From contig OY783197.1 in assembly GCA_963678675.1 (NCBI GenBank), forward strand, positions 7,959,069 through 8,023,068: 64,000 bases of DNA. Reading direction: 5' to 3'. Origin of the DNA: Xiphydria camelus. Taxonomy: Eukaryota; Arthropoda; Insecta; Hymenoptera; Xiphydriidae. The position numbers were made by a program, and so were the translations under genes. This document shows, piece after piece, positions 11,946 to 60,438 of the stretch. The notes under the pieces are model-generated. The model made no database searches, was not told where the DNA came from, and saw nothing but the letters and a program-made list of their open reading frames with translations. Every line of letters begins with the position of its first letter. Position 1 is the stretch's first letter.

Positions 11946-12110
11946 CCAATCCCGGAGACACTTGGAACGCGCGCGCGACGCGGTATCACGGTCTAAATGG
12001 GAGCGAGCCATGCTCTCGCCACTGAGGCCGGCGTAAGACCGGACCGTGTTAATACTGCATGCATTCGGCAACATCGCTAACCTCGCGTAGCTCCACCCCC
12101 TTCTAGTACA

Positions 12111-14213
12111 AGATCCGAACTAGAGACGTTCTTCACCGATCTGCTTACCGGATGAAAAGTATTTTTTATCAAACATAATACGTCAATGAATATATCGCGA
12201 ATCGGTAGGCTAATAAAATATGCTCAAGACTACCCTTAAAGCTATATAAACAGGTGAGCTGATATGAGCAATTTGCACCGATCTGCTTACCAATTAAACT
12301 ATATATGAAAATAAAGATAATTTTATTGCAAACACGACGGTATAACCCTACCTGCAAGAAATCGGTCATGAATCACGGTTGTAAGGCTTTGAGATTTATC
12401 GGAGCTAGCCAAGATGCGCGTACTACAGGCAAATTTGCTATAGGACGCAACGTAGGAAGTGGGCGCGACGCGACGGTTACCTACATGAGAGAGAGTGCGT
12501 ACATGCTGCTTCCTCGTACGCGATTGAAAAAGATAACACTACTAAAATGCCAAGAAAAAGCGACTACGATGGAGTAGGTACTGGCAGTAAACTTTTAATT
12601 ACTTTAAATTAAATATTAAATATTAAAATGTGAGAAATATTTTCAATTAAATATATGGATGGGGAAATATTAATATTTCTATCACAGAATAATAATAATA
12701 TGTTAGTGATAATTATTCGATAAATTTGATCTATTCTATAAAAATACCACAGCAAACAAACGGAAAAATTACATTTTTTAGAGAGCGATAAAAAACCATT
12801 AACAAATTGGCGGTGTAAAAAAACTTTATTATAAAACAATAAATACAATAACAATCTTTACAAATATTACAACAATATTACAACAAATACAGTATTATAG
12901 CCTTCCAAAAACTTGTATGTTGCTGGAATAAGAGTGCCCAGATTTTATATAACAGTAACCTAAACAACGCAAAGACTCCAACAAGAATTAAAAAATAGAC
13001 GATTGGCGACTACATGTACAGTATGTCCCGTGGATAACGCAAGTATTTGAATTTCCCTGACATTTGACTTTGGTAGTGCTTGGAACGGTGCTGTAGTTAG
13101 AGTTGGCATCAGAAGAGTGCGCTGCGTTCTTACGAGCCGTGTTTCGAGAACGAAAAGTGTAAAACGTCTGATTTTTCCCGGGAACTGTCAATTCGGGAAA
13201 TCGAAGCGTCTAACCTCGAAATTAACTGAATTTGTAAATAATGGTAAATAATGTGTAGAAATGATGAGAAATAATCATACAGGTTTCGCGGAAACACGGC
13301 TCGTAAGAACGCAGCGCGCTCTTCTGAAGCCAACTCTAACTACAGCACCGTTCCAAGCACTACCAGTCAAATGTGGTGGAAATTCAAATACTTGCGTTTT
13401 ATCCACGGGACATACTGTATACCTGGAGATGAGCGTGGCGGCCACCCCATGAGCCATCGCCTCGACTGTCTGGTTATCACTTGTTCGGAAAAAACTTTCA
13501 CTCGAAAACCCGGTAAGAACGTTTTTCGCCTTTTTCTGTACTTTCGAGAAAGAGCCATAAAGTAATAAATTGTCCCTTCCGGACAGGCAAATTAAAAATG
13601 CAAAGTTAGTTGAATCTTGAATGAAAATAATTGTACCAGGAATCCAACAGTAATTGATTGAAAAAAATAACGATTGAAAAAGATAACACTACATTACATT
13701 TATGTAATAATTGAGTACGTATTTTTCCGCAAACTGAGGGATGTAAATAGCGAGTCGCTCGTAGTCGCTTTTTCTCGGCATTTTAGTAGTGTTATCTTTT
13801 TCAATCGTACGATGAAGCAGCATGTACGCACTCTCTCTCATCTAACCGTCGCGTCGCGCCCACTTCCTACGTTGCGTCCTATAGCAAATTTGCCTGTAGT
13901 ACGCGCATCTTGGCTAGCTCCGATAAACTTCAAAGCCTCTTACAACCGTGATTCATGACCGATTTTTTGCAGGTAGGGTTATACCATCGTGTTTGCAATA
14001 AAATTATCTTCATTTTCATATATAGTTTAATTGGTAAGCAGATCGGTGCAAATTGCTCATATCAGCTCACCTGTTTATATAGTTTTAAGAGTAGTCTTGA
14101 GCATATTTTATTAGCCTACCCATTCGCGATATATTCGGTGACGTATTATGTTTGATAAAAAATACTTTTCATCCGGTAAGCAGATCGGTGAAGAACGTCT
14201 CTAGTTCGGATCT
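12111..14213. repeat. 2.1-kb palindromic element with arms of about 450 bp
   Basis: Terminal AGATCCGAACTAGAGACGTT (12111) is matched in inverse at 14213. The arms run to about 12570 and from about 13755, with roughly 95 percent identity by eye. Within each arm the motif CACCGATCTGCTTACC is repeated twice. The central 1.2 kb contains a separate hairpin element at 13019-13417. No protein-coding content. No clear target duplication was found. Confidence 0.75.
13019..13417. repeat. MITE of the CNGTATGTCC terminal family
   Basis: Inverted arms of over 100 bp begin CAGTATGTCCCGTGGATAA and are flanked by TA at 13017-13018 and 13418-13419. Internal words (GAATTTCC, TTGGCATCAGAAGAG, CGATTTCCCG types) recur in the elements at 32227, 38910 and 51097, so it is a diverged member of that family. 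A TA target suggests the Tc1/mariner or a related superfamily. Confidence 0.75.
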
Positions 14214-24618: not shown

Positions 24619-24911
24619 TCGAAATTCTTCTTTGTAGAAAGTATGCGATAGGAAGGATGGACCACGCGTCCGTCGAAAGAACACGTGCGCCAGTGCCCAT
24701 TTGTATTTATGACTGTGATACTATTAAACGGTACGAACCGTTGTGTCTAATTCAAAAAGCGAATTTAGTTTACTCTCTCTTAACTCTGCCATCGGTAAGT
24801 ACTGTTTAATAGTATCACAGTCATAAATACAAATGCGCACTGGCGCACGTGTTCTTTCGACGGACGCGTGGTCCATCCTTCCTATCGCATACTTTCTACA
24901 AAGAAGAATTT
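24619..24911. repeat. Hairpin MITE with arms of about 109 bp
   Basis: Near-perfect inverted arms start AAATTCTTCTTTGTAGAAAG (about 24621) and end with the reverse complement near 24911. The loop is about 75 bp. It interrupts the same gene between pieces 1 and 2. The target duplication is not certain because the arm tips are themselves palindromic with the flank. Confidence 0.75.
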
Positions 24912-28387: not shown

Positions 28388-29116
28388 CTTTATTGTAGAT
28401 AAAAATGTAATCTTAAAAAAAGTATTTTCCGAACATGGGCCAAAAGTAACATAATATAACAAAAGTTCGTAGTCAGTGAGGTAAAGCGATTCAATTTTTC
28501 ATCCTAATCAAGAAGATTGAAATCATATAATATATACTTAATATATGAACCGTTGAAAACCAGAATGGTCTAAGTCACATTTCATGTAAGCTGAGATTAT
28601 TTGACTGCAAAGTTAAGTACAATTTGAAAAATCTGTGTAGATGATGCAAACAGATATTTTTAATCGTAAATATCTGTTTTGTATCATCTAGATAGATTTT
28701 TCAAATTGTACTTAACTTTGCAGTCAAATAATCTCAGCTTACATGAAATGTGACTTAGACCATTCTAGTTTTCAACGGTTCATATATTAAATATATATTA
28801 TATGATTTCAATCTTCTTGGTTAGGACGAAAAATTGAATCGCTTTACCTCACTAACTACGAACTTTTGTTATATCGATACCTGAAAGCAACAGTGAGATA
28901 ACACAGATTTCGAGCTGTGTCAAACGTAATTTTATTTAAATATTTTTGCCGAGCTATCTCAGTATTGCATTGTATAAAGGCCGGTTTTAGCTTACGTTTG
29001 ACACAGCTCGAAATCTGTGTTATCTCACTGTTGCTTTCAGGTATCGATATGTTACTTTTGGCCCATGTTCGGACAATACTTTTTTTAAGATTAAATTTTT
29101 ATCTACAATAAAGTCC
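28388..29116. repeat. Palindrome with arms of about 270 bp
   Basis: Left arm 28388-28660 starts GGACTTTATTGTAGAT. The right arm runs 28668-28873 and resumes at 29050-29116 after a nested hairpin. Arm identity is high, with a few mismatches. The loop is only a few bases, so the whole could extrude as one stem. No coding content. Confidence 0.8.
28874..29047. repeat. TCGATACC hairpin MITE, second subfamily
   Basis: 174 bp. Arms of about 55 bp begin TCGATACCTGAAAGCAACAG and are flanked by TA (28872-28873, 29048-29049). The empty site is visible in the opposite arm of the surrounding palindrome (near 28450), which proves the insertion. Confidence 0.85.
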
Positions 29117-29333: not shown

Positions 29334-29949
29334 CCCTTTCGCTCACCGTGTCCACAAATGTGGACATGTAGATTAATGTACCGTATGTCCGCGATCATTT
29401 GAACCATAGGAAAATTGCGAGTTTTGCATGAGCACCCCTTTGGGTCTCCTCGTACAATAGAATCACCGGAGAAGCGTGAATGCGCATGCGTAGTCATCCG
29501 CGAGTGTGGCGTCGTCAGCAAGTTCAGATCGATTATTTCGATAACCGATCTGAACTTGCTGACGACGCCACACTCGCGGATGACTACGCATGCGCATTCA
29601 CGCTTCTCCGGTGATTCTATTGGACAAGGAGACCCAAAGGGGTGCTCATGCAAAACTCGCAATTTTCCTATGGTTCAAATGATCGCGGACATACGGTATA
29701 TATAAGGTCATAAATTAGAATTTTTACCGTTTGTTCACAAGAAGTACATTCGTGGACATTGTAACGAACGTATAAGACATATATAGCCATAAAAATTAAA
29801 AATTAAATTTATAAATAAATAAAAAAAAATTAAATTTATGAAAAAAAAATTTTTTTTTATCAGAAAAATTAAAATTTAAAGCATCGAACAACTGGAATAT
29901 ACATTATCAATTGTATAGCTGTAAAAATAAAAATTCGTGAGTGAAAGGG
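29334..29949. repeat. TTAA-flanked piggyBac-like MITE
   Basis: Ends CCCTTTCGCTCAC and GTGAGTGAAAGGG with TTAA at 29330-29333 and 29950-29953. The interior is AT-rich with A/T runs at 29815-29870. It contains the nested MITE at 29381-29696. No coding content. Confidence 0.8.
29381..29696. repeat. CCGTATGTCC hairpin MITE (copy 1)
   Basis: 316 bp. Arms of about 150 bp begin CCGTATGTCCGCGATCATTT, with TA on both sides (29379-29380, 29697-29698). The loop near 29535 is only a few bases. Near-perfect stem. Opposed mirror ORFs in it are artefacts of the palindrome. Confidence 0.9.
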
Positions 29950-32226: not shown

Positions 32227-33296
32227 CCGCAAGTCCTATGGCCAACCGCGCAGATGAGCTGCGACCTGAATTCTTGACTTCGGCAGTATTTATGGTACAG
32301 TTAGAGTGGGCTTCAGATGAGTGCGCTGCATAAGAACGAAAAGTGTCAACTGCTCTTCTAATAGCTGTCAATTCGGGAGATCGAAGCGTTTCGTGTAACC
32401 TCAAAATCGTAAAGTTTTGAATTAGTAGTGAATAATTTGTAGAAGTGATGAGGAATAATCATAAATAATCTTCCGAATTCACAGCCATCGGGAAATCAGA
32501 CGACGCTTTTCGCTCTTACGCTGCGTTCTTACGAAAAGTGTGAAACGTCTGATTTCCCGATGGCTATCAATTCGGGAGATCGAAGTCTAAGCTCGAAATC
32601 GTGAATCTTTGAATAAATGGTAAGTAATGTTCAGAAGTGAGAATTAACAATCATTCGGGTTTTTTCGATGTCCAACCGAATTACACGCCTCATGCCTATT
32701 TGTTTCAGAAATTATTTCCGCGCTAGCACCGCGCGTATCTAGGAAGTAGTTTTACGAAGTGGCGTGAGCGATACCTAAGGTGTCAATTCGGAAGATTATT
32801 TGAGGGGGTCAGAAGCCAAGGGGTCCAAGTAGAAATACAAGTTTTCCGAGATGCTCCACATTAAAGTATTCTTGTTCTTTAAAAATACCTGCAATTTCTT
32901 TGCCTCAAATATATAAGCTGTATGAACTATTCATACACCTTATACACTTGAGGCAAAGGAAAATTGCAGATATTTTTAAAGAACAAGAATACTTTAATGT
33001 GGAGCATCTCGGAAAACTTGTATTTCTACTTGGACCCCTTGGCTTCTGACCCCCTCATTTATGATTATTTCTCATCACTTCTACAAATTATTCACTACTA
33101 ATTCAAAACTTTACGATTTTGAGGTTACACGAAACGCTTCGATCGCCCGAATTGACAGCTATTAGAAGAGCAGTCGACACTTTTCGTTATTATGCAGCGC
33201 ACTCGTCTGAAGCCCACTCTAACTGTACCATAAATACTGCCAAAGTCAAGAATTCAGGTCACAGCTCACCTGAGCGGTTGGCCATAGGACATGCGG
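32227..33296. repeat. CCGTATG-family element with 240-bp arms
   Basis: Ends CCGCAAGTCCTATGGCC and GGCCATAGGACATGCGG, arms of about 240 bp (32227-32465, 33057-33296), TA on both sides (32225-32226, 33297-33298). The empty site matches other X copies. The interior contains remnants of a related hairpin (32470-32640) and a separate hairpin MITE at 32801. Confidence 0.8.
32801..33057. repeat. Hairpin MITE, TGAGGGGGTC termini
   Basis: 257 bp with arms over 110 bp beginning TGAGGGGGTCAGAAGCC, and a short AT-rich loop near 32920. No clear target duplication. Sits between the two arms of the surrounding element. Confidence 0.8.
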
Positions 33297-33298
33297 TA

Positions 33299-34790
33299 TA
33301 AATTGGAACTTGTGTGATAGTATAATACGAAAGAGGAAATATATAAATAAAGAAAAAAAATAATAAAGTAGATACTCCATTATTGTAATCCAATTCCATT
33401 GTATCCCTTATTTTTCTCCCACGACTTTAATTGTTGATAGTGGATGGATCAGCTAATAAATTTGATTTTTATTCACTATCAACGATCAAAGTCGTGGCAG
33501 AAAAATAAGGGATACAATGGAATTGGATTACAGTAATGTAGTAACTACTTTATTATTATTTTTTCTCTATCGATATATTTCCTCTTTCGTATTATACTAT
33601 CCCACACAAGTTCGAATTTATATACCGACCTGTCAAATGTGAAGTGTACATGTACCTCACTTTCATTAAGTATTACTGCAGAACGAGTACGTTAGAAGAT
33701 TTTCATGAAGACTCACGATTTTCTCACATGTTATCTCGTACAGGTGCAACCGAAGAGGATCTAGCTCGTGTACTGTCCATAAAAAGATGACTCGATGGAC
33801 ATCGGAGAATGTCCGGCTTGTCACGGAGCGCCTATTACCTACGGTACATTAATTGCAATACGCGCTTCTCGTTTCATTCAACTATTCCAGCGTTAAATAA
33901 CTTTTACTTCTTTCAAGGTAATAAACTTTTATGAACTGTTCGTGGTAGGAGGCAGCGATCGATATTAGCGACTCGTCGTAGACAAGTTCGTCTATTAAAA
34001 CTAAAAGGCAATTCGGTGTACCGAACTACTACTGCGATAATGTGCCCGAGCTCACGGTCTATTCTGCGATTAACATTAACATAATCGTGATTATGCTCGG
34101 GTGATGGGTGTTCCAAAAGAGGTAAAGTTGATACTAAACATCGGATGCTGTAAGCTGACTTGCTAGTGTATGCTTTGCAACTGGAACATCATCGCAGGAA
34201 TAATTTGTCTACGATTAGTCACAATCATTGATCGCTGCACCCTACGATGAACAGTTTGTACAAGGTAAATACTTTGAAAGAGAAGTGAAAGTTATTTAAA
34301 GCAGGAATAATTGAAACGAAAAGCGCATATTGCAATAAATGTACCGTGGGTAATAGGCGCTCGGTGACAAGTCTGACATTCTCCGATGTCCATCGAGTCA
34401 TCTTTTTACGGACAGGACACGAGCTAGGTCCTCTTCGGTTGCACCTGTACGAGATGACATGTCAGAGTCTGCAGTAATATTTAATGAGATAAAAGTGAGG
34501 TACATGTACACTTCACATTTGACAGGTCGGTATATAAATTCGAACTTGGGATAGTATAATACGAAAGAGGGACTATATCGATAAAGAAAAAATAATAATA
34601 AAGTAGTTACTACATTACTGTAATCCAATTCCATTGAGAATCCCTTATTTTTCTGCCACGACTTTGATAGTTGATAGTGAATAAAAATCAAATTTATTAG
34701 CTGATCCATCCACTATCAACAATTAAAGTCGTGGTAGAAAAATAAGGGATATAATGGAATTGGATTACAATAATGGAGTAACTACTTTAA
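33299..34790. repeat. 1.5-kb palindrome with internal smaller hairpins
   Basis: Arms 33299-33880 and about 34315-34790 are inverted copies. They carry GTGAGGTACATGTACACTTC, a short frame reading TGATEEDLARVL, and the block GGAGAATGTCCGGCTTGTCAC. Each arm contains its own inverted pair (CACTATCAACGATC type). The central 430 bp is unique and includes a minus-strand 67-residue frame of no known relation. Unclassified. Confidence 0.65.
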
Positions 34791-35934: not shown

Positions 35935-37749
35935 CAGATTCTCTGTAAAAAAAAGGCGGCATGTTCATTCAGTGCCAACAAAAATTGATACGTAAAATAC
36001 TCTCCAAAAGATTTGAAATCAATTGAAGGGCTCGGGGCAACAAGGGATATAAGCCACATTTTACGCGAAAATGAAATTTCTGCTCTGATGGATTGCTGTA
36101 ATGCAAGGCCGAAGTCACAACAAATATTACATACATATTGCAACATATGGCGCCAACAGCCGAGAATGCCGTTGTTGTATATTTATTAAGTTGGTACTTA
36201 TTTTCATACAAGAAGGTTATAAGCCACACAAAAGTCATCATGGCCACTGTGACTGGGAGGACGTGCAAATGAAAACAGACTGAAAACGAGTTCAATTCAA
36301 GTGATAGTAATCGTTATTTCGACTCAGATGATTCAGTTAAAGACCGGGATTATGTTGAAACAAGCTCAACTTCTGATGATGAATTCTTCAGCGATTTATC
36401 GGTAAGTAAGTTTTATAGCGGCTTATGCCCTTTATGCAGAAATAAAAATGGCTTATGCCCTTCTATAGAAAAAAATAACAAAGTGCTGTAATATTAATAA
36501 ATTTTAATTATTGTTCACTAAAAATTGAATCTTTTCTTAAAGTTGAGGTTTACTAGTGAAAATAAATCTGAGTTTGCACTGTGCTATAATTATGTTCTTG
36601 CAAAAACAAAGACGATTCTCTAATTTGTGGCTTGTGACCTTTTTGCATTAAAAATATTTACTAGTCACTGGGTAATTAAAATATTGTTACAGGAGAATTG
36701 CAACCAAAATTTTGATACTATTCGTTAAGTGCTACCCTTCTAATCGTAGAATATAAAACTATGTTCCTTTTTTATACCAAAATAAAATACCAAATATAAA
36801 TATTATATATAAATATTATATATATAATATAAATATAAATATTATATTTATTATTAAATATTATAAATACCAAAAATAGATATTTCTTTTTTTTAATAAA
36901 AAAAGTAATATGTCACTTGGTTTTTAAATAAATGTTTTTTTCAAGTATGTAAATTATTTTTTAAAATTAAATATTCACTATCAAAAGCACTGCCTTCAAC
37001 TGTTTGTACACACTTAAAACAAAATTAGTCCGACTTATTTTATGATTTCAGGATTTGAATGATATATTCAAACCGAGTTTTCTCAGAGTGATGAAAATGT
37101 GGCTTATATCCCTTGTTGCCCCGAGCCCTTCAATTAAGATCGCCATGTTCAAGATTTATGTATTAAAAGTAAAAGGCATCATTTGAAAGGAAAATTATTG
37201 TAAATCAAGTTACTAAAAAATTCGACTAAAAAAATTTATAAAAAAATTTTAATAAAAAAGAACTTGCCGCGTTTTTTCCTTCAAAATAAAAAATTCAGAC
37301 AGAATTATACTCGATGTTTATGCACTTATGATTTTAAATAAATTCATACACTCTTATATGATACCACCAGTATACCGAATGTCGCACAGGAAACCGATCA
37401 GGCGAGGCCTTCTGAATTTCTCTGAATTTGACTTCGGCAGTGCAATTTATGAATCACTCTAGCACCGTCCAAGCACTACCAATTATTTGGCATAGTGGAC
37501 AAAATATAAAAACTTAAACGCGGCAAGTTCTTTTTTATTACAATTTTTTATAAATTTTTTTAGTCGAATTTTTTAGTTACTTGATTTACAATAATTTTCC
37601 TTTCAAATGATGCCTTTTACTCTTTTAATACATAAATCTTGAACATGGCGATCTTAATTGATTTCAAATCTTTTTTGGAGAGTATTTTACGTATCAATTT
37701 TTGTTGGCACTGAATGAACATGCCGCCTTTTTTTTTTACAGAGAATCTG
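35935..37749. mobile_element. 1.8-kb element with CAGATTCTCTGT inverted ends
   Basis: The left arm (CAGATTCTCTGTAAAAAAAAGG, 35935-36080) is inverted at the right (37096-37135 and 37656-37749), with arms of about 130 bp split on the right by a nested hairpin. The interior encodes a short Ser/Asp-rich segment (SDSNRYFDSDDSVKDRDYVE, about 36300-36400) followed by GTAAGTAAG, a plausible splice donor. This resembles the acidic N-terminus of many transposases, but the remainder is absent. Confidence 0.65.
37136..37655. repeat. Nested hairpin element with AATT target duplication
   Basis: 520 bp. Arms of about 130 bp begin AAGATCGCCATGTTCAAG, flanked by AATT at 37132-37135 and 37656-37659. The intact left arm of the surrounding element (36015-36030) shows the empty site. 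The centre holds a scrap of CCGTATG-family sequence (37385-37520). Confidence 0.85.
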
Positions 37750-38580: not shown

Positions 38581-38909
38581 ACCTCATCATCGTTAATATA
38601 AATTCACTGAACTTGGGTAATGTATTTTGATGGGTGTATTTTATTTTTTCTTCAACAAAATTAAAAAGGTGTAATAACTAAGTAAAGGTAGGAAGTCCGG
38701 TATAAAACTTGACCTTGCTATCATTATCTCTGAAAGACTCGTCAGTCAACAACAAACTTTTCACTTTCTCACGAAGGTTCATAACTTCAGCTCTTAAGGC
38801 GACATTGTCCATACTGAGGCATACATAGTCTTTCCTGACATTGTTTAAAACGTCCTCACTTTTTAACAAATTTACTTTCAAGGCACCATTCTCTTTTTGT
38901 AAGACTATA

Positions 38910-41900
38910 CCGTATGTCCAATGGCTAGTCGAGCAGGTGCAGCGACCTGAATTTTTCTGAAATTTGACTTCGGCAGTGTTTTAGTTAGAGTTGGCTTTGG
39001 AAGATGGCGCTACGTACGAGCGAAATATTTGAAATGGTAAAAGCAGGAGGTAGATAAATGCGGGAGAAGTGAAGTGTAACCTCAAAATTGTGAATGTTGG
39101 AATAATGGTGAGTAATTGTTTGAAACGATAAGACATAATAATTCGGGTTTCTTTTCGATGTTCAACCAAATAACACGACTGATATTTAATTGCAGAGAGA
39201 AACTGATGCGACTGGCAGTCGTGGAGGAAGGGGCTACCGTCAACGTGGTCCTCGCCAGAGTGGTCGAGCTCTGCCTCGTCGACGAAAGGTGCAATTGAAA
39301 TGAAATTAAAGTCTGAGTCAAGGTGAAAATTTGAAGACATGGAAAGAAAACGCGGCAGAGTCGCCGACAGAAGGAGTGAGTAAAGTGCGAAAGAAAAGTG
39401 CAGTGACGCCGAAAAACCACGTGGAAGACAGTGACGAACAGCAGCAGCAACTGGTCGACACTGCTCAACTCCGCACCAGCTCCTGAATGATATCTCGCCG
39501 ATCGCGATACGCGACCGCTCCGATGGACAACGATTCCAGACATTCGAGTCGTAGTAGCAGCAAGGACAGCAGCAGCAGCAGCAGCAGCGTCAACGGCAGG
39601 GGCACTCTTTTAAAGCGAAGGCAGTCCAAGACCGACTCGAATAGCTGTAAGAGAAAGACGCATCGGCGGAAACATGAAATATCGAAGCAAGACTTGCAGT
39701 GAGAGTGTGGTAAAAGAAAGAAAAAAAATGACAGAGACGAGGCGACGAGACAGAGGAGGAAGTCGTCACCACGAAGGGTTCCTGAAACGGTACCAGTACT
39801 AGCAACGTGTGAAGAGTTCAAGAGAACGGGCCATCTACACCCAGTCGCAAATCATGCAGAGTTCCTGTGACATCTGATAGCGGCATCACGTCAGGAGTAT
39901 GAACGGTGGAGAAGAACGGGAGCCTCGCTGAAAAAGGAAGGAGCAGTGTTGGCGATGGCGGTGACAGCCCGGATCATGAGCAAAGGCTGAAGAACCTTGA
40001 GCGTTTTTGATAAAAAGTGGACGTGACTCGAAGCAGTTATCGTAATCGATTTACGCCGACACTGGTGCCGTAGCCAATCTCGATCACAATGGATTCTTCC
40101 AACTAGAGGCGGTTTCTATATCACTCGTCGCCGTTGATCCTTTCCCTCTCAATCCTTGTACATAATGCATCTGTTAATATGAAGTTTGATCCGAAACACT
40201 TCCATCCTTCCTATTGTAACACTCTCGTAACAATACGGTCCGATTATTTTATATTCATAAGGTTTTATCAGCTTTACGCGTTATTCCTCGTTATTTTCGT
40301 TATTTAACCTTGCATTCATACATTATTACTGATGGATTATTAATAAATTAATTCATGAAAGTGACTCTACTGGCTTGTGCTATTTTTCGTCCGGTATTTC
40401 CTTCCGCAAGATATTTGGATAAATGTACCCCTTCGATCTTGAAGAGTTTGGTTGGAATAAGCAAGACGGATAGTGGACAGAGTTTAGGCATTAGGAGGCA
40501 TACAAGATGTCACAATCAGCGGGACAGGATTTCGTGTAATCATGATTTATTAGAATTTTTCATTCATAAAATTAGCTCCCGCAGGGGAAATTACATTTTG
40601 TACTGTAAACTATGAGATAGATGTATCTCATCTAGAGCTACTAATGAAGTATAAAATATCAATTGAACACAGATTTGTTGATACAGAAACGATTACTATC
40701 CACTTCACTTACTATAAATCATGATTACACGAAATCATGTCCCGCTGATTGTGACATCTTGTATGCCTCCTAATGCCTAAACTCTGTCCACTATCCGTCT
40801 TGCTTATTCCAACCAAACTCTTCAAGATCGAAGGGGTACATTTATCCAAATATCTTGCGGAAAGAAATACCGGACGAAAAATAGCACAAGCCAGTAGAGT
40901 CACTTTCATGAATTAATTTATTAATAATCCATCAGTAATAATGTATGAATGCAAGGTTAAATAACGAAAATAACGAGGAATAACGCGTAAAGCTGATAAA
41001 ACCTTATGAATATAAAATAATCGGACCGTATTGTTACGAGAGTGTTACAATAGGAAGGATGGAAGGGTTTCGGATCAAACTTCATATTAACAGATGCATT
41101 ATGTACAAGGATTGAGAGGGAAAGGATCAACGGCGACGAGTGATATAGAAACCGCCTCTAGTTGGAAGAATCCATTGTGATCGAGATTGGCTACGGCACC
41201 AGTGTCGGCGTAAATCGATTACGATAACTGCTTCGAGTCACGTCCACTTTTTATCAAAAACGCTCAAGGTTCTTCAGCCTTTGCTCATGATCCGGGCTGT
41301 CACCGCCATCGCCAACACTGCTCCTTCCTTTTTCAGCGAGGCTCCCGTTCTTCTCCACCGTTCATACTCCTGACGTGATGCCGCTGTCAGATGTCACAGG
41401 AACTCTGCATGATTTGCGACTGGGTGTAGATGGCCCGTTCTCTTGAACTCTTCACACGTTGCTAGTACTGGTACCGTTTCAGGAACCCTTCGTGGTGACG
41501 ACTTCCTCCTCTGTCTCGTCGCCTCGTCTCTGTCATTTTTTTTCTTTCTTTTACCACACTCTCACTGCAAGTCTTGCTTCGATATTTCATGTTTCCGCCG
41601 ATGCGTCTTTCTCTTACAGCTATTCGAGTCGGTCTTGGACTGCCTTCGCTTTAAAAGAGTGCCCCTGCCGTTGACGCTGCTGCTGCTGCTGCTGCTGTCC
41701 TTGCTGCTACTACGACTCGAATGTCTGGAATCGTTGTCCATCGGAGCGGCCGCGTATCGCGATCGGCGAGATATCATTCAGGAGCTGGTGCGGAGTTGAG
41801 CAGTGTCGACCAGCTGCTGCTGCTGTTCGTCACTGTCTTCCACGTGGTTTTTCGGCGTCACTGCACTTTTCTTTCGCACTTTACTCACTCCTTCTGTCGG

Positions 41901-42354
41901 CGACTCTGCCGCGTTTTCTTTCCATGTCTTCCAATTTTCACCTTGACTCAGACTTTAATTTCATTTCAATTGCACCTTTCGTCGACGAGGCAGAGCTCGA
42001 CCACTCTGGCGAGGACCACGTTGACGGTAGCCCTTTCCTCCACGACTTCCAGTCGCATCAGTTTCTCTCTGCAATTAAATATCAGTCGTGTTATTTGGTT
42101 GAACATCGAAAAGAAACCCGAATTATTATGTCTTATCGTTTCAAATAATTACTCACCATTATTCCAACATTCACAATTTTGAGGTTACACTTCACTTCTC
42201 CCGCATTTATCTACCTCCCGCTTTTACCATTTCAAATATTTCGCTCGTACGTAGCGCCATCTTCCAAAGCCAACTCTAACTAAAAAACTGCCGAAGTCAA
42301 ATTTCAGAAAAATTCAGGTCGCTGCACCTGCTCGACTAGCCATTGGACATACGG
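38910..42354. repeat. Giant 3445-bp palindromic transposon (CCGTATGTCC family)
   Basis: Two arms of exactly 1641 bp (38910-40550 and 40714-42354) around a 163-bp loop. Tips CCGTATGTCCAATGGC, with TA at 38908-38909 and 42355-42356. By eye there are about ten mismatches and no net length difference, so over 99 percent identity. Arms share internal words with smaller CCGTATG-family elements (GACTTCGGCAG, CTAACTCTAAC) near the tips, while their inner 1.3 kb is unique here. No transposase. This is the largest member of the family in the window. Confidence 0.9.
39196..39717 (+). other. Possible captured host-gene exons in the palindrome arm
   Basis: After a splice-acceptor-like TTTAATTGCAG (ends 39195) comes a frame rich in Arg/Gly (TGSRGGRGYRQRGPRQSGR). 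Further on are KTWKENAAESPTEGVSK and a Ser/Lys/Arg tract MDNDSRHSSRSSSKDSSSSS with HRRKHEISKQDLQ, in frames broken by a few stops. RGG and Ser/Arg tracts are typical of RNA-binding host proteins, not transposases. The same sequence is mirrored at 41550-42070. I cannot name the gene. Chance low-complexity coding is the alternative. Confidence 0.35.
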
Positions 42355-42899
42355 TATGTAAGAAATAATGCACTCATTATTCTGGAATGCCGGGACACAG
42401 GTGGTTTGATTGTTGGTCCTTCCATTTCTTGATTCCTTTTGCGACGCATATCAGCTCTACGAGCTCGTGACATAGACACGTTGACAAATTTTTGGTCACT
42501 TTCTCTTCGTGAATAGCCCAAAAACAAACTAGGGACCCAATCTACGTTAGTCTCGTCAAATAACTGTGCAGTTTTACCTTCGAAACACAGAGAGTAAGGT
42601 TAGAATATTTGTTGACTAACTAGTTTTGGTATATAATTACAACTTACCAGTAACAAAGTATATGTTGCAGACTTTTACGTCCCTGCTTCTGTTTTTTGTT
42701 AATTTAAATAGCTCAGGCCGATTTATTCGTGAAAGCCAAGTTGCCCGCCTCCTCGTAGAGATCCATGGTTTTGTTACACTGGTTTTCAATCACAGGCGGT
42801 AAACCATATAAATTAACGGAGTTACCATCCTTTCCGTATGTTGCCGAGCAACCAACAATGGCACAAATTACCATCTTAACAAGATCGCAGCCTGCTTAA

Positions 42900-43408: not shown

Positions 43409-43550
43409 CCGTATGTCTGACGGCAAGCGCAACACCACTTCGGCAGTTTTTACCGACGATGGTCGAATCTTGCATTAGATCCAATGCAATTTTCGACCAT
43501 CGTCGGTAAAAACTGCCGAAGTGGTGTTGTGCTTGCCGTCAGACATACGG
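43409..43550. repeat. CCGTATGTC hairpin MITE (142 bp)
   Basis: Arms of about 65 bp start CCGTATGTCTGACGGCAAGC, with TA at 43407-43408 and 43551-43552. Near-perfect stem with a short loop (ATTAGATCCAAT). Confidence 0.9.
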
Positions 43551-45198: not shown

Positions 45199-46114
45199 TA
45201 TTGGCGGTACTGCACTAATCCTGTGGCACACTTTTGAATTGGATTACAATAATAATGAAGTAATTATTTTATTATTATTTTTTCCTTTACCGATATATTC
45301 CCTCTTTCGTACTATCACAAGTTCCAATTTATACACCGACCTTTCAAATGTGAAGTGTACATGTACCTCACTCCTATTTCATCTCTTCTTCGTCTCTGGT
45401 GTAACGACGGTCAATGAGGTATCACTGATGCCGATTAGACAGATGTGCTGAATAAGGCTGTACAGCTGTACTACCGCAATAATGTGCCTTCCCAGAGACA
45501 AACAAGAAATGAAATAGAAGTGAGGTACATGTACACTTCACATTTGACATGTCGGTGTATAAATTGGAACTTGTGATAGTACGAAAAACGGAATATATCG
45601 ATAAGAAAAAAAATTATAATAAAATTCTTTTAAGATTTGTATATAGTATCAATAACCACAAGCTTTCAAAAACATATTAAGGTAAATGTACTAGTAGTTG
45701 ACACATTCCCTTTTAAACCTATAGAATAAGATTTCTTATAAACTCATATAGTTGCCTTATCCAGGCCGGATTAATCGACTGACCATGGCCGGATTCGAAA
45801 TACCGTTACATGCCTGATCAGGGCCACATATAGTTGCCTTATCCGGGCCGGATTCGAAATGCCGTTACATGCGTCATCAGGGCCTGATATAGTTGCCTTA
45901 TCCGGGCCGGATTGTGTAGATAGGGAAGTCTGATCGGGCCCGGATGCCAGCCAGAACAAAATTTTACCTGGGAGGTACCGTTCCTCGGTCACGAGCGTCG
46001 TGCGGGGATCGTCGTCTCGTTATTGGAATAAAATGCTTTCTCTGCTATTGGCAATCGACATTGGATGCTCACCATCTGGTGGCGGATCCTCCAATCATTA
46101 TTAAGACGCTATGT

Positions 46115-50007: not shown

Positions 50008-50806
50008 CTTTTTTCCTCGCTCATGCCCATTTCGAGGCCTTTTCCAGCCTATTTTTAGACCGTAAGATGGCATTTTTCCTGCATGACACCGACCGGGAGT
50101 CGGCAAGCTGTCAAGAGATTGTTTAGTCCGAAATGGGTCCTTTTTCCAAACTGATAAACGCGACGTGAAATGAGCCGTGATACTTCTATTTGTTTTGTTT
50201 TGAGAAATGGGCATTCATGAGAAAAAATAGTAAATGTCATTCGGCTGAAATCCTCTAATTTTTAAGACTGTGTTTATGTTGTAACCGAAGGCGAGCCTCG
50301 TCCCCTCACCATGCCTCGTGTTACGACCTAAGGCGCAATTCACAGAGAAGTGGCGCGTGGAGGTGGCGTGGAACGGGCATTTGCCACTTGCATTTAAGTC
50401 CATGAGGGACCACGCCAGTGCCACGCCACTTCTGTCTGCATTACCTCATAGGCTAACACGGAGGTGGCAAATGCCCGTTCCACGCCACCACCACGCGCCA
50501 CTTCTGTCTGAATTGCGCCTAATACACACGACACAGTCTGAAAAAAACCTCGGATTACCGCCTAATGACATAAGATACTATTTTCTCACGAATGCCCATT
50601 TCTCAAAACAAAACATACACGACTCATTTCACGTTGCGTTCATCAGTTTGAAAAAAGGACCCACTTCGGACTAAGCAATCGCGCCAGTCTGAGTAAAGTA
50701 CTTTTAACAGTGCGGACTCCCGCTCGGTGTCACGCGGGAAAAACGCCATCTTACGGTCCAAAAATAGACTGGAAAAGGCCTCGAAATGGGCATGAGTGAG
50801 GAAAAA
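50008..50806. repeat. 0.8-kb foldback element
   Basis: Arms 50008-50255 and 50550-50806, inverted, sharing CTCATGCCCATTTCGAGGCC and GAGAAATGGGCATTC. About 85 percent identity by eye. The loop region contains the nested MITE at 50332. ORFs in it are mirror artefacts. Confidence 0.75.
50332..50519. repeat. Harbinger-like MITE (188 bp)
   Basis: Ends GGCGCAATTC and GAATTGCGCC with TAA at 50329-50331 and 50520-50522. Arms carry AGAAGTGGCGCGTGGAGGTG. TAA target and GGC tips fit PIF/Harbinger. Confidence 0.8.
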
Positions 50807-51096: not shown

Positions 51097-51290
51097 TAGA
51101 AATAATGGAAATTACTCACCATTATTCACAAATTCATGATTTCGAGGTTAGACGTTTCGATCTCCCGAATTGACACCAACTCTAACTGCCGACTCGACTT
51201 CTACCGGTATAAATGAATCAAGTACCGACCAAGCCTGTCCGAAGGTAAATTTCAAACTGGCCAATACAGAGCGGGACATACGGTATGGTA
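51097..51290. repeat. CCGTATGTCC-family remnant
   Basis: Right tip GGGACATACGG followed by TA (51287-51288 region) and the family words GATTTCGAGGTTAGACG and TTCGATCTCCCGAATTGAC. The left arm is lost. Flanked by two copies of TTGGTAATGTTAC / TCGGTAATGTCAC sequence (51060, 51298), a hint of a local duplication. Confidence 0.6.
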
Positions 51291-51898: not shown

Positions 51899-52714
51899 AA
51901 GTTGCTACAGACGCATATATTGGTTCTCATAATGCGGAACAGCAAGCTTTTCTGCATCAAATGCTCTACAAGATGTCTGTGATTGATACCGGGGGATTGC
52001 CATATGAAATTGCACTTGTCATTAATGAACCATACATTATAACTACTAACATTGACGTCTCAGATGGACTGGAAAATGGTGCTGTTGGTAAACTGGTACG
52101 TATCGAGCAGAACGAAGCTGGAGAAGCAACCCGTGCCTGGTTGGACTTTCCTGCATCATCAAAAACTGGAGAAAAGATTAGACGAAAAGCTGCAGTCGAA
52201 CTACCGTCCCAATTGCAAAGAGAACATCAACACACACACACAATCACATTGAATAATAATAAAACGATTATTGCGAAAAGAAACCATTTTCCAATAGTTC
52301 CTGCTTCTGCCACTATAATACACAAATCCCAAGGGGGCACATTCAATGAGATTGTCTACGAGTATCACAAGACCCACTCACAGCAACTGCTATATGTAGC
52401 ATTATCACGAGTGACAAATATAGAGGGACTTTACATCGTAACTTGCAATAACGATACAACATTTTACCATGGATGGAAATCAGCGACATCGATGGTCGCC
52501 TTGCAAAAGGAGTTCCGGAGGCTCGCTTTAAACAAATTACAGATAATAGACAACGTGCTCCTCGATTTCATGAGTGCTAAGAAAGGACTATCAATATGTT
52601 CCTTAAATTGTCAAAGTCTTGGTGCTCACAAATCGGATCTCACCGATGCGGTGATCCAACGAGCTAACATACTTTTTCTTTCCGAAACTTGGTTAAACGA
52701 TGAAGGCAATATTG
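51899..52714 (+). CDS. Helentron (Helitron) helicase C-terminus and start of endonuclease
   Basis: Rolling-circle transposon protein. The frame is open from 51899 and truncated at its 5' side. It covers the last Pif1-type helicase motifs (ALVINEPYIITTNIDVSDGL, NGAVGKL, RNHFPIVPASATIIHKSQGG, YVALSRVTNIEGLYIV), then without a break the start of an exonuclease-endonuclease-phosphatase domain (SICSLNCQSLGAHKSDL, ILFLSETWLND). A helicase fused to this endonuclease is the mark of Helentrons/Helitron2. The Rep nickase and early helicase motifs are missing. The solo LTR at 52715 interrupts the protein in a loop of the endonuclease. Confidence 0.85.
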
Positions 52715-53832
52715 TATGACGTAGCGTTCGGCGAGGGCCCTCGGTGCCCTCCGCTACTCACAATCTCGCGGCCCCGATGCCGCGCACGAAACGGAAAAGA
52801 CGATGGGCGCCAGGTGCACCGCGCATGCTCCGCGAGGGGAGACGATCGAGCTCCCCGGAAACGCGCGGAAATCGCGAGATCGGTACCGTTCCGATCTCGA
52901 ACGGGTCCAGCTACCACAGCAAATGGTAGAGGGGCGGTTCGGTGGACGCTGACTGGGACGCGGGAGGACGGATTCGCGGATGGGTTCGCGAAAAAGAAAG
53001 TCGACTACGTTCATAAACAAAAGACAATCGTTTATTTCACCGGGGACGAAACGGAGGTCCCCGGGCGATGCTCGCGGTCGCAACCAAAGAAAGCGGAGTG
53101 GGCCGCACAACGTCGCGGACACCACTCGATTCGTCGACGAGATGAAAGGCGCTAACGGTGCACTATCGGCGCGAAGGCGAGTCGGAAACGTGCGCACTCG
53201 GACGGCGAGCGCGAGACGGAAACGTGCGCTCTCGGACGGCGAGCGCGAGACGAAAACGTGCGCTCTCGGACGGCGAGCGCGAGACGGAAACGGGCGCGAA
53301 CACGGCGAATAGGGGCGCGTCAGCTCGACGGAAGCCCACGGCGGGTCGGAGGTCGAACGTTCGGGAAAGGAGAAGCATACCGGTGGCGTCGAGGTCTTCA
53401 ATGGCCCCCTCGTCGCCCTCCTTGGTCGTCCGGTTGGCGGCTCCTCACGACACCTCTGATCCTTCAGGTTTCGGCGAAGGATCCTCTCGGAATCGGGGCT
53501 GACCTCGATGACTCCTTGGAGACGCTCCGTTTCTCCCTCGACTCTCTCTCTCTCAACCACTTCTGTCACTAAACTCGTACTCGACACTCTCTCGCAGGCT
53601 CGCTGAACTCGTTATCAAGCGATCGTACTCGTATCGTGACTCGAGCAGAACTAACTATCCTCCGGATCGATACCGGTTCGCGCGCGCTACCCGGGCTCGT
53701 CCGGATTCGTACCGTCGCCGCGATCGCGCTCGCGACGTTTCGCGCGGCCCTTTCGACGACTGATTCGCACGCATTAGTCCGAAGGGGCCGATTGCACCCT
53801 TTTTGTGATGCGGAGCGATTCTCCACGTCACA
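52715..53832 (-). mobile_element. Solo LTR, TGACGT family (copy 3)
   Basis: 1118 bp, TATGACGTAGCG...CCACGTCACA, flanked by ATTG at 52711-52714 and 53833-53836. Minus-strand AATAAA near 53035 gives its orientation. The Helentron reading frame resumes exactly on excision, which fixes the boundaries. Four tandem 30-bp GC-rich units (CGGACGGCGAGCGCGAGACG) lie at 53195-53295. Large ORFs here (up to 277 residues) are products of GC richness. Confidence 0.9.
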
Positions 53833-54895: not shown

Positions 54896-55610
54896 GTGGC
54901 GTATCTGCGGATTCTCTTGCGAAATCGTTGTGCCTCGAAAAGCCTGGAAGGGAGGACGCCCTACGAGGCCTGGCATGGACGAATCCCAGATCTACGACAT
55001 CTCCGGGTGATTGGCACGAAGGCGTTCGTTCTTAATAAAGCTTCGACTAAAGGGAAATTCGATCCGCGAGCCCGCGAAGACGTTCTTGTCGGATATTCAG
55101 ACGTGTCAAAGGGCTATCGAGTGTGGGTACCGTCTGAGAGTCGCATCGTTACAGCCCGAGACGTAAAGTTCAAGTCAGAGCTCGGAACAGCCCGTTTGGA
55201 GTTCGTGTATTTCCGCCCGATGATTTTATCGGTGATAAAGCAGCTGATGAGCAAGTTGTGGAGAAATCGCGAGTGGAGGAGAGAGAATTTGACGTCGCGC
55301 CGATCTTACATCCTGTCGAGGACGTGATTACAGAGTCTGTCATACGGAGAGCGCCTGGAGGGCCGCATCTTGTACGTACTGGCAGTCGTCAGAAAGAGTA
55401 TCGGATAGTTAATGTTTCGTCAAGAGGTTCGCAGAATAGCGGTGGGACTCCAAGAACATCGATGGGACGAGCTTCACGCGGCGATGAAGTGCTTGAGGAA
55501 TTGGAGAACGAGGTTTTTGAGGAGGCGAATGTCGCACCGGTTTATGCGACGGAGATTCGTCTTCGGGAGGTCATGGCTGGGCCGCAGGCAGACGAGTGGA
55601 AGGAAGCGAT
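54896..55610 (+). pseudogene. Copia integrase C-terminus and linker
   Basis: First frame (to 55327) contains GRTPYEAWHGRIPDLRHLRV, GTKAFVLNK, VLVGYSDVSKGYRVW, ARDVKF, the C-terminal end of Copia integrases (the GKTPYE...L.HLRVFG...GYS...GYR pattern). After a frameshift near 55260 the linker to RT continues and ends at ADEWKEA, the usual block opening the RT domain. Cut there by the Polinton at 55611. Upstream coding is deleted. Confidence 0.8.
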
Positions 55611-56740
55611 AGTAGGTAAGCTAGGACAGTTCGAGCACATCAATCCGGACGGGTTACCTACTTTCAGGGAAAAAATGGCGGGAAATTTGAATTCGCGTAC
55701 CACGTGACCCAAAGGAGCTCTCCCATTGGTCGAACCCCCACACCCCGACCCCCGCCAGATGTCGCCACCATCGGTGCCAACCATTTTGAATTTTACCCCA
55801 ACAGAGCTCCACCATTGGTCGAACCCCCACCCACAGAGCTCCACTATTGGTCGAATCCCCACTCTCCGACTTCGCTCGTAACGCCACCTGGCGGACCTCC
55901 ATTTTGCTCGCAGCGCCATCTCGACCTCACTCGTAACGCCATTTGGTGGAACTCGACTTTGCTCGCAGCGCCATCTCGACATCGCTCGCTACGCCATCTG
56001 GCGGACCCCCACCTCGCTCGCAGCGCCATCTCGATAACCTCCCCACCTTGGTTCCAACTTGCACGTGGCAACGCTACTGCGCACGTCCGGTTCCCGGAAT
56101 TGTTGTGTCTCCGAGCAATCCTGCTATACAATTTCGCTGACTCGCGTGTGCAGGCTAGGTTTTGCTCCAAGCAGCTGCAAACTTGCACGTGTATCAAATT
56201 CCAACGCTACTGCGCACGTCCGATTCCCGGAATTGTTGTGTCCTGCTATCAAATTTCGCTGACTCGCGTATGCCGGCTCGGTCTTGCTCCAGACAGAATA
56301 AATTCCAGCTTGCACGTGGCAATGCTACTGCGCACGTCCGATTCCTGGGATGACGCCAGCTCCGAGCAATCTTGCTATCAAATTTTGCTGACTTGCATAT
56401 GCAGGCTCGCGCGGTTCGCTGCGATGTGTGCAATTTCATACTCTATAACGCGCACTCCGCTGCACCAGGATTCAAATTCGCGCGAGCTGGCTCCGATATT
56501 CCGACGACACCACCTACTCTCCGAACTCCGCAACGCCATCTCACAGACCCACCATCCACTCCCCGACCATCTACGAGTTCAAAAATGGCGGAAAAATTGA
56601 ATTTATTTGCCTCGAGTAATCATGCGGTGCGGTGTGGCGCATCCTCACTCGCAGCATCATCTCGAAGCTACGCTATTGGTTGAATCCCCACTCATCACTG
56701 TTACTATGCAACATGCAGCCGGATGATTTCCCCCTCTACT

Positions 56741-56851
56741 GAGCAATGATTGACTATAAGAACACCGCATCTCTGGAGTACCGCCATCAGAACGCCATAT
56801 CTCTGGGGTACCGCCATCAGAACACCGCATCTCTGGAGTACCGCTATCAGC
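56741..56851. repeat. Tandem repeat, three units of about 33 bp
   Basis: Units of the form AACACCGCATCTCTGGAGTA and CCGCCATCAG at the inner edge of the left Polinton terminal repeat, directly before the small gene at 56865. Confidence 0.8.
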
Positions 56852-56864
56852 CGCAGTTACGAGA

Positions 56865-57212
56865 ATGGACTTCATGGAACTAAACGAGCTCGGCAGATCA
56901 GCCGGATATTTGAACACCAAAAAATTATCCGAGCTAGAGATTGGAAAGGAGTATCTGATCACCAAAGTGAAGAGGATCGTGACGAAATACGGACTGAAGA
57001 TTGTGGTGGATCTGGAAAACAGTTTCGCAGTCTTCCTCCCAGCGAGAGTATAGAAGATTTTCAAGGATGGTGACGATATGGAGATTGAGAAGTTTGTTAA
57101 GGAATGCGGTGCGAATAAGCTGCACTTGAAATACCTAGGCGGTAAATACAATTATTTCGAGTTTGTAAAGAAGCGAGTTGTCAAACGAACTGAGTTTATG
57201 AATAAAAATTGA
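56865..57212 (+). pseudogene. Small Polinton protein, in-frame stop
   Basis: Starts MDFMELNELGRSAGYLNTKK at 56865 and continues with LITKVKRIVTKYG, VVDLENSFAVFLPARV. An in-frame TAG at 57051-57053 is followed by about 52 more codons in the same frame, to TGA at 57210-57212, with LHLKYLGGKYNYFEFV. Size (about 115 residues) and beta-rich pattern suggest an OB-fold single-strand-binding protein. I recall similar proteins in invertebrate elements but cannot prove the function. It converges on the polymerase gene, as expected inside the element. Confidence 0.5.
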
Positions 57213-57511
57213 AAAAAATAAATGTGTCACTCATTTGTAACTTTAATCAAAAGAAATAATTTTTCTCCCTCAACGATTGCTCTTCGGTGTAGTACAGAAG
57301 CGAACCTACGAATCATCGATCGCGACTGTTTAGTGTAAGCTAGTTGATAAGATTTAGACCTATATACGAGAAGAAATTTCCAGCATCAGTGCGTTCACGG
57401 TACGTGCATTCATTCGTTCATATATTTAAACGTGGGAGTCAACGGGAGGGGTGTTGGATTCAACTTCAGAAGCGAACTTACGAATTGCCGCTCGAGATTC
57501 TTTAAGAGATA

Positions 57512-57514
<3 letters not shown>
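57213..57514. other. Polinton intergenic stretch
   Basis: No gene seen between the small protein and the polymerase C-terminus. AT-rich with no repeats recognised. Confidence 0.35.
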
Positions 57515-57546
<32 letters not shown>

Positions 57547-57621
57547 CCTCCCTCCCCCCTCTCCCCCTCCCTCCCCCCTCCCTCCCCCCTCCCTCCCCCT
57601 CCCCCTCCCTCCCCTCTCTCT
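57515..57621. repeat. CT microsatellite turning into CCCTCC repeats
   Basis: About 28 bp of CT dinucleotides followed by CCCTCCCTCCCC-type units, all purine-free on the plus strand. It abuts and truncates the polymerase reading frame, replacing the C-terminal part. Confidence 0.95.
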
Positions 57622-60438
57622 CGGAGGTTGCATGATCTGGCCGTTGCACTCGTCCTTCATGATGCTAACCACCTTCTTGTTCTCCAACGGCATCTCAAAG
57701 GCGTTCTCGGCGGGGTAATCGGACGTGTCGAAGCATCCAATGTGATGCTTCATCACGTCGTAGACGTCCCCGCCTCGCACTTCGTAGATGAGGCTGTCGG
57801 TGTCCGTTTAGAGCAGCTTGCAATTGCTCTCAAAGGTCGCCATCATGAAGTCGTAGTGAAACTCGTAAACGCAAGTCTTCGACAAGTCGAATACGCAGAA
57901 CCCCACGAAGATCGGCTTATTCAGCAGAACTTCGATCTTGATGAGTAGCACGACTACGAGGTTTTCCGCGAAAAGGACTCGGTTGTGGAAGTTGGGCTTG
58001 GCGATGAGTGCTTCAGCACTGTATCTGCCCTTTCACTTGGTTACGAGTTTGATGTCAACACGTTTGCGCACGTTCTCCATCGTCTTGCCGAGCACTGCGT
58101 TGTTCATGAGTTTGAACAAGTTTTTTTCAAACTCATTGCGGGCTCGTTTCCTCATACGGCTGTTCAGGTCCATGCAGCTCTTGAACCACGGTGACTGCTC
58201 GAACTTCAGGGCTCTGTGGATGTTGGTGAGCCGTAGATCGTGCTCAAGAGCTTGCCTGAGATTGCGGTAGTGGATGATGTAACGCGATTTCGGATACAAT
58301 GTCGTCAGAAGCTTGGGCTCCTTCAAGCCCGGTGGCTTCATCCGCTCTGGGCAGAGCGGCAGGTCTCGATGGGTGTCGTGGATGACTTCCGGATAGTTCA
58401 AGTCCACCTCGAGTATGTATCCGATGGGTGAGTCGTCGGACACATTCCACTGGAAGTCGTTATCGAGGTTCTCCACCCACTCGAAGCCACCGTACGGGAG
58501 ATGTTGCGTCATCGCCCAGCCGTACAAGTTGTTCACGTCGCAGTACATGAGGTACTTCGTCTCCTCTTCGGGATTGCAGTCCCTCATGTACGCGTTGTTG
58601 GCTCGGGCGTAACGGTTGCTGCACTGGCTGACACCGCCTCGGATGCCCCGCTCGACGAACATGAGCATGTCGATGTCGGTGAGTAGTTGCAGCTCGATCG
58701 CGGTGTACTTCGGCATGGCGTCCCACGTGAGGCCGGGTGTGGTGTAGTAGTGGGCCCGTCCAGACCGTACGCTTCGAGATAGTTGTTGCGAAAATTCTCG
58801 AATACGTCGGCCAGCAGCAGGACGTCGGTTTTCAGGTAGAGTTCTGCGTACTCGTCCAGGATTCCCACGTTGAACTCATGCCAAACCCTCTGGGCGTATT
58901 CGTAATCCTCGTCGGAGATATCGCAGCCGTTGAGACGGCTGTGAAATTGTTGTTTCATCGGCAACTCCGTCACGTCCAGTTTGGCCCACGCGTCGAGGCA
59001 CTCATATGGGAAGAGTCCTTTCCGCCTCAGCAATTTAAACTGCTCAGCTTGGATTTGCGGGAACTGGCTTTTGGTGATCATTGCCTCCGTGAGGTAAGAC
59101 GCCAACTTCTCCAGCGAGGATGCCATGAAGCGGAAGGAGTCGATGAATCGAAGAGCGATGTCGCTGCCCTTCAGATGTTTCTTGAATGAGACGTATCGCT
59201 CCATGTTTAGCGGCAATAGGTCGATCCGGCCGTCGAAGCAGGTGGAAACTTCTTTTATGATGAGGTGGCTATTGTAGCCGCTGAGATTGTGGAAGACTAC
59301 GGGAATGGTGCGCGAATCCTGATAATTCAGATTACAGTCCTCGTGTACTGCACCCCTGTATCTGCTGGTGAGATGGCAGTGGTCCCGAACTCTCCTCACA
59401 TCCAGCAGCGGCTTTTCGCAAATGTGACACTTCTCGGCGATGCGGAAAGCCCTCTGATGTTCCTCCGTGAGCGGTTGCATGGGTATGGTGTTCTTGAGGA
59501 CTCCTTCGACCTGCTCGACCCATTCAGATAGTTCGCGCGCGAACCATTCAGCGGGTTTCGGGCCCCGAAAGCTGTTGTAGTGGGACAGCGTGTCGTCGTA
59601 GCTGCCCCAACTCACGTAGGCACCTCACGTAGTACCCCACGCTGAACGGTTCGTGCACTTGACAAACTCTCGTCTTGCTCGTCTGCTGCAGGTCGATGTT
59701 CTTCAGGAGACACTCGAAATCTGCGTAGACGACAAACGGCACCTTTTCCTTGAAGTTGAAGTTCTTAAACTTCAAGGTGCTGTGCATCGGTGCAGGCATC
59801 TTGACCTTGCATCGATTCACCTGGCCGCAGTCGACATCGTGGGCTTCCACCCTTTTACTACTCCGGAAGTAGTGCAGGCAGCGATCACAGATGTACTTCT
59901 TCCCATCCCTTCTTGAAAGTTGGGTGCTGACTAGCCGAGAAAGGTCCTTTATCCACACGTAGTGGTAGATGGTTGATGTTTCGTCGTCATCGTCCCCCAC
60001 CACCGCCTCATCATCCTCCTCCTCATTGACGTAGCGATCTTGAATCATGAGGAGATTCACATGCTTGGTCTTCTTGTGTGAGGTAACGTGGATGGGGGCT
60101 ACCACAAATTTTTCTTTGCACTTCAGCAGAACATAGATGTTGATCGAGAGCTCGTTCTGCTTCTCAAACTTTGGGACCTCTCTCGGCATCACTGGGAAGT
60201 CTATGCCCATAAAGTTCAGCTCGTTTTCGTACGGCCTATACACTGACACACGATTGGGGTTACGATCAACAGGATGCAGTGCAGAAAGGAGCGCCCACTT
60301 GAAACACTGGTCGTCGGTGTTTTTCACGTTGACACAAGCCTCCTTCCTCTTGACAAACCCGGGAAGTTCTAGGTAGGAGCTGCCCCTCATAGGGTTGTAC
60401 CGGTTCACGTTGACGGTCAAGTTGATGATGACTCGCAA
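57622..60438 (-). pseudogene. Polinton protein-primed family B DNA polymerase, frameshifted
   Basis: Replicates the element from a protein primer. Read on the minus strand in pieces: 60438-59548 (N-terminal region, a CDRCLHYF...H...C zinc finger, and VVYADFECL of the exonuclease), 59615-58584 (CHICEKPL zinc site, HNLSGYNSHLI exonuclease, [13 protein letters not shown]), 58716-58033 ([12 protein letters not shown], polymerase motif [15 protein letters not shown], motif B) and 58032-57622 (TDTDS, motif C, preceded by an in-frame stop). Frameshifts fall near 59610 and 58720. The end is lost at the CT repeat. Domain order is diagnostic. The gene is inactive as it stands. Confidence 0.85.

Follow-up and report, generated by a model that had tools for sequence, protein, structure and literature searches.

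A 3445-bp near-perfect palindrome in Xiphydria camelus DNA as a probable copy-back derivative of a TA-inserting transposon

Mu killer, a derivative of the maize element MuDR, has both of its TIRs from the mudrA-side end and carries an inverted duplication of part of the gene, with each half reaching 1.298 kb into mudrA, according to passages of its description (PMC3440606). The same passages report that silencing Mu killer plants contain short antisense RNAs that are unable to form large hairpins, and keep the long hairpin as no more than a possible contributor. Galileo and Foldback, of the P superfamily, have long and variable TIRs; in Galileo the TIRs have recruited part of the transposase ORF, defective copies are ascribed to aborted repair, slippage or template switching, and the target duplications are of 7 bp, as stated in parts of PMC4168063. 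Tc4 of C. elegans has a fold-back structure, by the title of a paper cited in PMC11071193, an excerpt of which gives its target duplication as TNA inside CTNAG. Within Tc1/mariner, long-TIR variants of Bari of about 250 nt are described in sections of PMC4877112, and TIRs of 355 bp are given for Mcmar in work cited in a part of PMC3169594. Palindromic MITE-like elements of Anopheles are in print with their superfamily not assigned in the relevant passage (PMC3212995), and Drosophila hpRNA loci are described, in an extract of PMC10317233, as hairpin-RNA loci yielding endo-siRNA.

We analysed a 64-kb stretch of Xiphydria camelus DNA (the window), to which alone all family counts given here refer, and describe a palindromic element, E1, that is most likely a large example of this known kind of element, with a plan comparable to that of Mu killer and a shape comparable to that of Tc4. 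The two ends of E1 are alike and may both come from one end of a parent, as those of Mu killer do, and the loop of a relative, E3, appears to continue the same end; Mu killer differs in being of the Mutator family, with a known parent and known silencing. Galileo and Foldback resemble E1 in that their TIRs are long and variable and can take in sequence of the transposase ORF, but E1 has no target duplication beyond TA. E1 folds back over nearly its whole length, a shape like that of Tc4, except that its TA lies outside any CTNAG. Tc1/mariner MITEs and the Bari elements share the TA duplication and include long-TIR variants, although E1 has arms of 1641 bp instead of about 250 bp and has no linked transposase. 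The hpRNA loci give rise to hairpin RNA, and E1 differs in having transposon ends.

Architecture and age of the palindrome

Base-by-base reading places E1 at 38910-42354, a total of 3445 bp, with the following parts:

38908..38909, unstranded: TA at the left tip, either a target-site duplication or part of the end
38910..40550, + strand: left arm, 1641 bp
38910..38919, + strand: left tip, CCGTATGTCC
40551..40713, unstranded: loop, 163 bp, single-copy, with no other match in the window
40714..42354, - strand: right arm, 1641 bp; its reverse complement matches the left arm at 99.27% identity
42345..42354, - strand: right tip, CCGTATGTCC
42355..42356, unstranded: TA at the right tip

A repeat search returned the same structure as inverted arms at 38907-40550 and 40714-42357, 99% identical and with 163 nt between them. 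Comparison of the arms base by base confirmed the near-perfect palindrome with equal arms and a 163-bp loop that an earlier note on this DNA had described, and replaced its estimate by eye of about ten mismatches with an exact count of 12 substitutions and no indels (99.27% identity). Seven of the differences are transitions and five are transversions; eight fall in the outer half of the arm and four in the inner half, and they are spread along the arm (Kolmogorov-Smirnov p 0.19), the longest identical run being 363 bp (simulated p 0.57). When the E1 region was shuffled 50 times with its dinucleotides preserved, exact inverted words reached 18 bases at most. To our knowledge, palindromes of this length and arm likeness are seldom met in assembled animal DNA. 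TA is present on both sides, as had been claimed, and the flanks beyond it are unlike each other: outside the tips the symmetry extends for only three bases (ATA on the left, TAT on the right), and the next six differ at every position.

These observations bear on two explanations that would make the palindrome something other than a recent genomic product. Palindromic reads are a known artefact, and a missed-adapter read of this kind or a false inversion could in principle place such a structure in an assembly or library; misassembly of E1 is nevertheless unlikely because its ends lie exactly at the tips of a transposon family, next to TA, its flanks differ and its arms are distinguished by 12 substitutions and no indels, and an artefact of either origin is scarcely credible to us. 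The other explanation concerns age. The insect mutation rate is about 3e-9 per site per generation, and at this rate the 0.73% divergence between the arms would put the E1 duplication at very roughly a million generations ago, which suggests that E1 is young. The earlier note had offered two options, a very young palindrome or arms whose likeness is maintained, by gene conversion or by hairpin replication; the former is favoured, as the 12 differences are scattered with no sign of converted tracts, at the low power that 12 sites provide, and neither conversion nor hairpin replication is needed. The high identity along so long an arm would also fit an old palindrome whose arms stay similar through gene conversion, but the scatter of the differences and the simple recent origin that suffices to explain them make this very unlikely. 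The arms are also imperfect in all four two-ended relatives described below, so ordinary decay suffices.

Relatives in the window and their common end segment

The tip CCGTATGTCC occurs exactly five times in the window, against 0.05 occurrences expected, and ten times when up to one mismatch is allowed, against 2.25 expected. This tip, unchanged or slightly changed, bounds five two-ended elements (E1, E2, E3, E6 and E7), all five with TA on both sides, and two further copies of the family, E4 and E5, are one-ended. The relatives of E1 are:

13019..13417, unstranded: E3, arms of about 127 bp, tips CAGTATGTCC (one change), TA flanks
29381..29696, unstranded: E6, 316-bp palindrome, tip an exact match to that of E1, TA flanks
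32227..33296, unstranded: E2, outer arms of about 242 bp (96%), tips CCGCAAGTCC / CCGCATGTCC, TA flanks
37375..37442, + strand: E5, one-ended, tip CCGAATGTCG
43409..43550, unstranded: E7, 142-bp palindrome, tip CCGTATGTCT (one change), TA flanks
51110..51283, - strand: E4, one-ended, bearing the ATG/donor segment described below

E1 is thus the largest member, within the window, of a foldback family with common tips, as the earlier note had supposed. Its statement that the tips are shared with hairpins of 142 and 316 bp is exact for 29381-29696 and holds with one change (CCGTATGTCT) for 43409-43550, and E2, E3 and the one-ended copies at 51283 and 37375 add to the relatives that it had listed. 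The tips of E2 depart from CCGTATGTCC by two changes on the left and one on the right, and its middle holds a further copy of the end segment. E6 and E7 have little in common with E1 except the tip, and no match between E1 and either of them was listed by BLAST at E<=0.01.

Some family members are nested with other repeats. E3 lies in the middle of a separate foldback with different tips and arms of about 390 bp (12104-14220), E5 sits in the loop of a palindrome with other tips (37165-37624), and a hairpin with 97-bp arms at 99% (32801-33057) is nested inside E2.

The similarity between the E1 arm and E2, E3, E4 and E5 found by BLAST amounts to 64-83% identity by stretch and lies entirely within the first 285 bp. 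The features of this outer part are:

38910..39192, + strand: part of the arm common to four relatives (each over part of it), with the end, a 5'-UTR-like stretch, ATG, donor and an intron-like stretch
39105..39107, + strand: ATG right before the splice-donor-like GTGAGT (mirror 42157-42159 on the - strand), also in three relatives
39108..39195, + strand: putative 88-bp intron, GTGAGT...TTTAATTGCAG (mirror 42069-42156 on the - strand)

E1, E3, E4 and the middle copy of E2 all have an ATG with a donor-like GTRARTAAT immediately after it, and in the outer arms of E2 the ATG has been lost (GTAGTGAATAAT). E1 has an acceptor-like end, TTTAATTGCAG, at 39195. From these motifs we infer that the ATG at 39105 may serve as a start codon and that 39108-39195 may be an intron.

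The copies differ in how far the common end is duplicated. The 139-bp loop of E3 (13149-13287) matches the E1 arm with 73% identity over 99 bp (E 3e-10 with a set search space), E2 with 78% to the middle copy and 73% to both outer arms, and E4 with 88% over 67 bp; by homology, it is the continuation of the same end. The ATG/donor segment accordingly lies in the single-copy loop of E3, in both arms of E1 and, in decayed form, in both E2 arms. The inverted duplication thus has a different limit in each copy, giving arms of about 127 bp in E3, 242 bp in E2 and 1641 bp in E1 from an end that homology shows to be the same. The plain reading of these varied breakpoints would be repeated, independent copy-back from one end; alternatively, E3 may have lost part of one arm from an ancestral element with long TIRs. 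With a graded series of arm lengths from seemingly one transposon end, sequence comparison can test whether foldback elements arise by copy-back.

Homology searches and target site

Past the putative intron the arm continues as follows:

39196..40550, + strand: inner arm, 1355 bp, with no recognised protein
40342..40347, + strand: AATAAA, a possible polyadenylation signal (mirror 40917-40922 on the - strand)

In comparisons within the window, for which the search space was set by hand, the inner arm matched only the other arm, save short matches with E values of 0.13 or higher; the E1 loop had no other match. The inner arm holds a Ser/Arg-rich frame. Past the putative intron, 265 codons of the sense frame include 6 stops, where shuffles predict 10.2 (p 0.10, or p 0.27 as the best of three frames); the antisense frames have 5, 7 and 3 stops. 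A coding role of the arm was dropped, as the shortage of stops falls short of significance and is greater still in two of the three antisense frames. No Pfam family was found at E<=1 with six frames or pieces of the arm. The 265-residue read-through was scored against 1037 candidates of a protein collection with none at E<=1, and the 175-residue antisense frame against 823 candidates with none at E<=0.1, in a search restricted to proteins whose length is 0.55-1.75 times that of the query, so that a long parent protein would escape it. The piggyBac frame of the window, used as a control, retrieved 103 relatives from the same collection, including those of beetles, an ant, a spider and other arthropods; the collection is therefore not blind to arthropods, and the transposons of the window point to an arthropod-like host. 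In the PDB, a basic Ser-rich stretch of the arm gave the only two matches (E 0.12 and 0.15), one of them named a CSE4 histone, and both were put down to composition.

None of 333 pattern stretches for a 71-residue frame was confirmed in viral contigs, and a tip pattern of 18 positions, 17 of them fixed, had no stretch in viral contigs and hits in seven scattered records of prokaryote genomes, six of which are MAGs and all of which we judged to be due to chance. The arm with its loop had no match among 50,697 phage records, and Rfam had no match in the window at gathering scores. The family was not found among the top-listed results of literature searches, which by sequence covered the ten-letter tip; of 32 papers with this tip in their text, the 20 listed include none that is a transposon paper by title.

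A TA target-site duplication is a mark of the Tc1/mariner superfamily. TA flanks five of the five two-ended elements, where it may also be part of the end, and the target site of E1 is compatible with the Tc1/mariner (IS630) superfamily. Pfam detected no DDE/D transposase related to Tc1/mariner within E1, and there was no Tc1/mariner transposase among the Pfam matches of 18 of the 63 window frames of at least 120 codons (those of the palindrome itself excluded). Other groups were rejected on target site. ISL2EU duplicates AT and PIF/Harbinger TWA (part of PMC4482050); an AT duplication, with the boundary moved by one base, fits three of the five elements and fails for 13019-13417 and 29381-29696, whereas TA fits all five, and the E1 flanks, ATA on the left and TAT on the right, form neither a TWA duplication nor the TNA within CTNAG of the Tc4 group. 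The seven bases on the left (GACTATA) and on the right (TATGTAA) are not the 7-bp duplication of the P superfamily and Galileo, and the Pangu and Nuwa groups were also excluded on target site.

Origin of E1 and a possible role in silencing

E1 is probably young and non-autonomous, formed by copy-back (snap-back) from a cut-and-paste DNA transposon with TA as its insertion site. The palindrome, its tips, the TA flanks, the relatives and the copy-dependent arm ends are the observed part of this reading. E1 would consist of the first 1804 bp of one parent end, made up of 1641 bp and the 163-bp loop, and then of an inverted second copy of the first 1641 bp, as would result if DNA synthesis from one end, for example in repair of an excision gap, switched to the opposite strand and returned to the tip. 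On each end, facing inward, there would be promoter-side sequence of the parent with its ATG and first intron, and having two like ends E1 could be moved by the transposase of an intact relative. The symmetric ends at family tips, the TA on both sides and the unlike flanks argue for copy-back, as do the ATG/donor segment that is single in E3 and duplicated in E1 and E2, the resulting three arm lengths, and the Galileo precedent of extended TIRs and of copies made defective by aborted repair, slippage or template switching; against it, neither a parent element, a linked transposase nor an empty site was seen in the window, and E6 and E7 share little with E1 beyond the tip. The inner arm has no recognisable transposase, so that it may not be parent sequence.

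A rival reading is a Pack-type origin, in which the inner 1355 bp of each arm would have been captured from a host gene (its body and its 3' end, with the AATAAA) and the whole later made palindromic, so that the hairpin could act on the host gene. The relatives cease to match near the 3' end of the putative intron, the inner arm has no counterpart elsewhere in the window, and its Ser/Arg-rich frame and the AATAAA at 40342 are gene-like; yet neither the 265-residue read-through nor the 175-residue antisense frame matches a protein, despite the arthropod proteins in the collection, and the deficit of stops is within chance (6 vs 10.2), which leaves capture possible but doubtful. It is unlikely that long TIRs, of 242 bp or more and perhaps of the full 1641 bp, were already present in the parent and that the palindromes arose by internal deletion without copy-back. 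The end segment is indeed on both sides in E2 and E1, and the long TIRs of Bari and Mcmar offer precedents, but their lengths are far exceeded by 1641 bp, and the inner part of the end segment is one-sided in E3.

E1 might be a mobile, Mu-killer-like silencer in an arthropod, with its parent's promoter, start codon and first intron facing inward on both ends, that would produce long dsRNA and silence its own family wherever it inserted, the shorter palindromes nearby being repeated products of the same process; we consider this improbable. Transcription that ran on through the loop would produce double-stranded RNA of 1.6 kb. Against such a role, the hairpin model is disputed for maize Mu killer itself (passages of PMC3440606), and the siRNA pathway of Aedes has a limited impact on transposon expression, by the title of PMC12076837. 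If transcribed through its loop, E1 would readily supply small RNA directed at its own family and would then bear on the onset of transposon silencing in animals, and E1 would matter more if its RNA hairpin did silence the parent family.

The window contains further repeats and mobile elements. Other inverted repeats, with other outer sequences, lie at 28454-28874, 33364-34789, 17247-18132, 24622-24911, 50010-50806 and 45266-45625, and the window appears to abound in foldbacks of several unrelated families, judging from the 25 longest of 76 inverted-repeat pairs. Inverted repeats of 471 bp (94%) and 231 bp (91%) at 55607-61549 enclose DNA polymerase B-like frames (58033-59624, - strand). Pieces with SH3_retrovirus and RVT_2 domains at 54896-55327 and 61785-62348 are presumably Copia-like, and a reverse transcriptase frame (RVT_1) at 2524-4119 on the - strand is one that we take to be LINE-like. 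A helicase-like frame at 51901-52719, with a weak UvrD_C_2 match below the curated cut-off, resembles, as we assume, a Helitron/Helentron helicase. Two overlapping frames at 6905-8289 make up a piggyBac-like transposase, and database proteins match the first of them with up to 79% identity.
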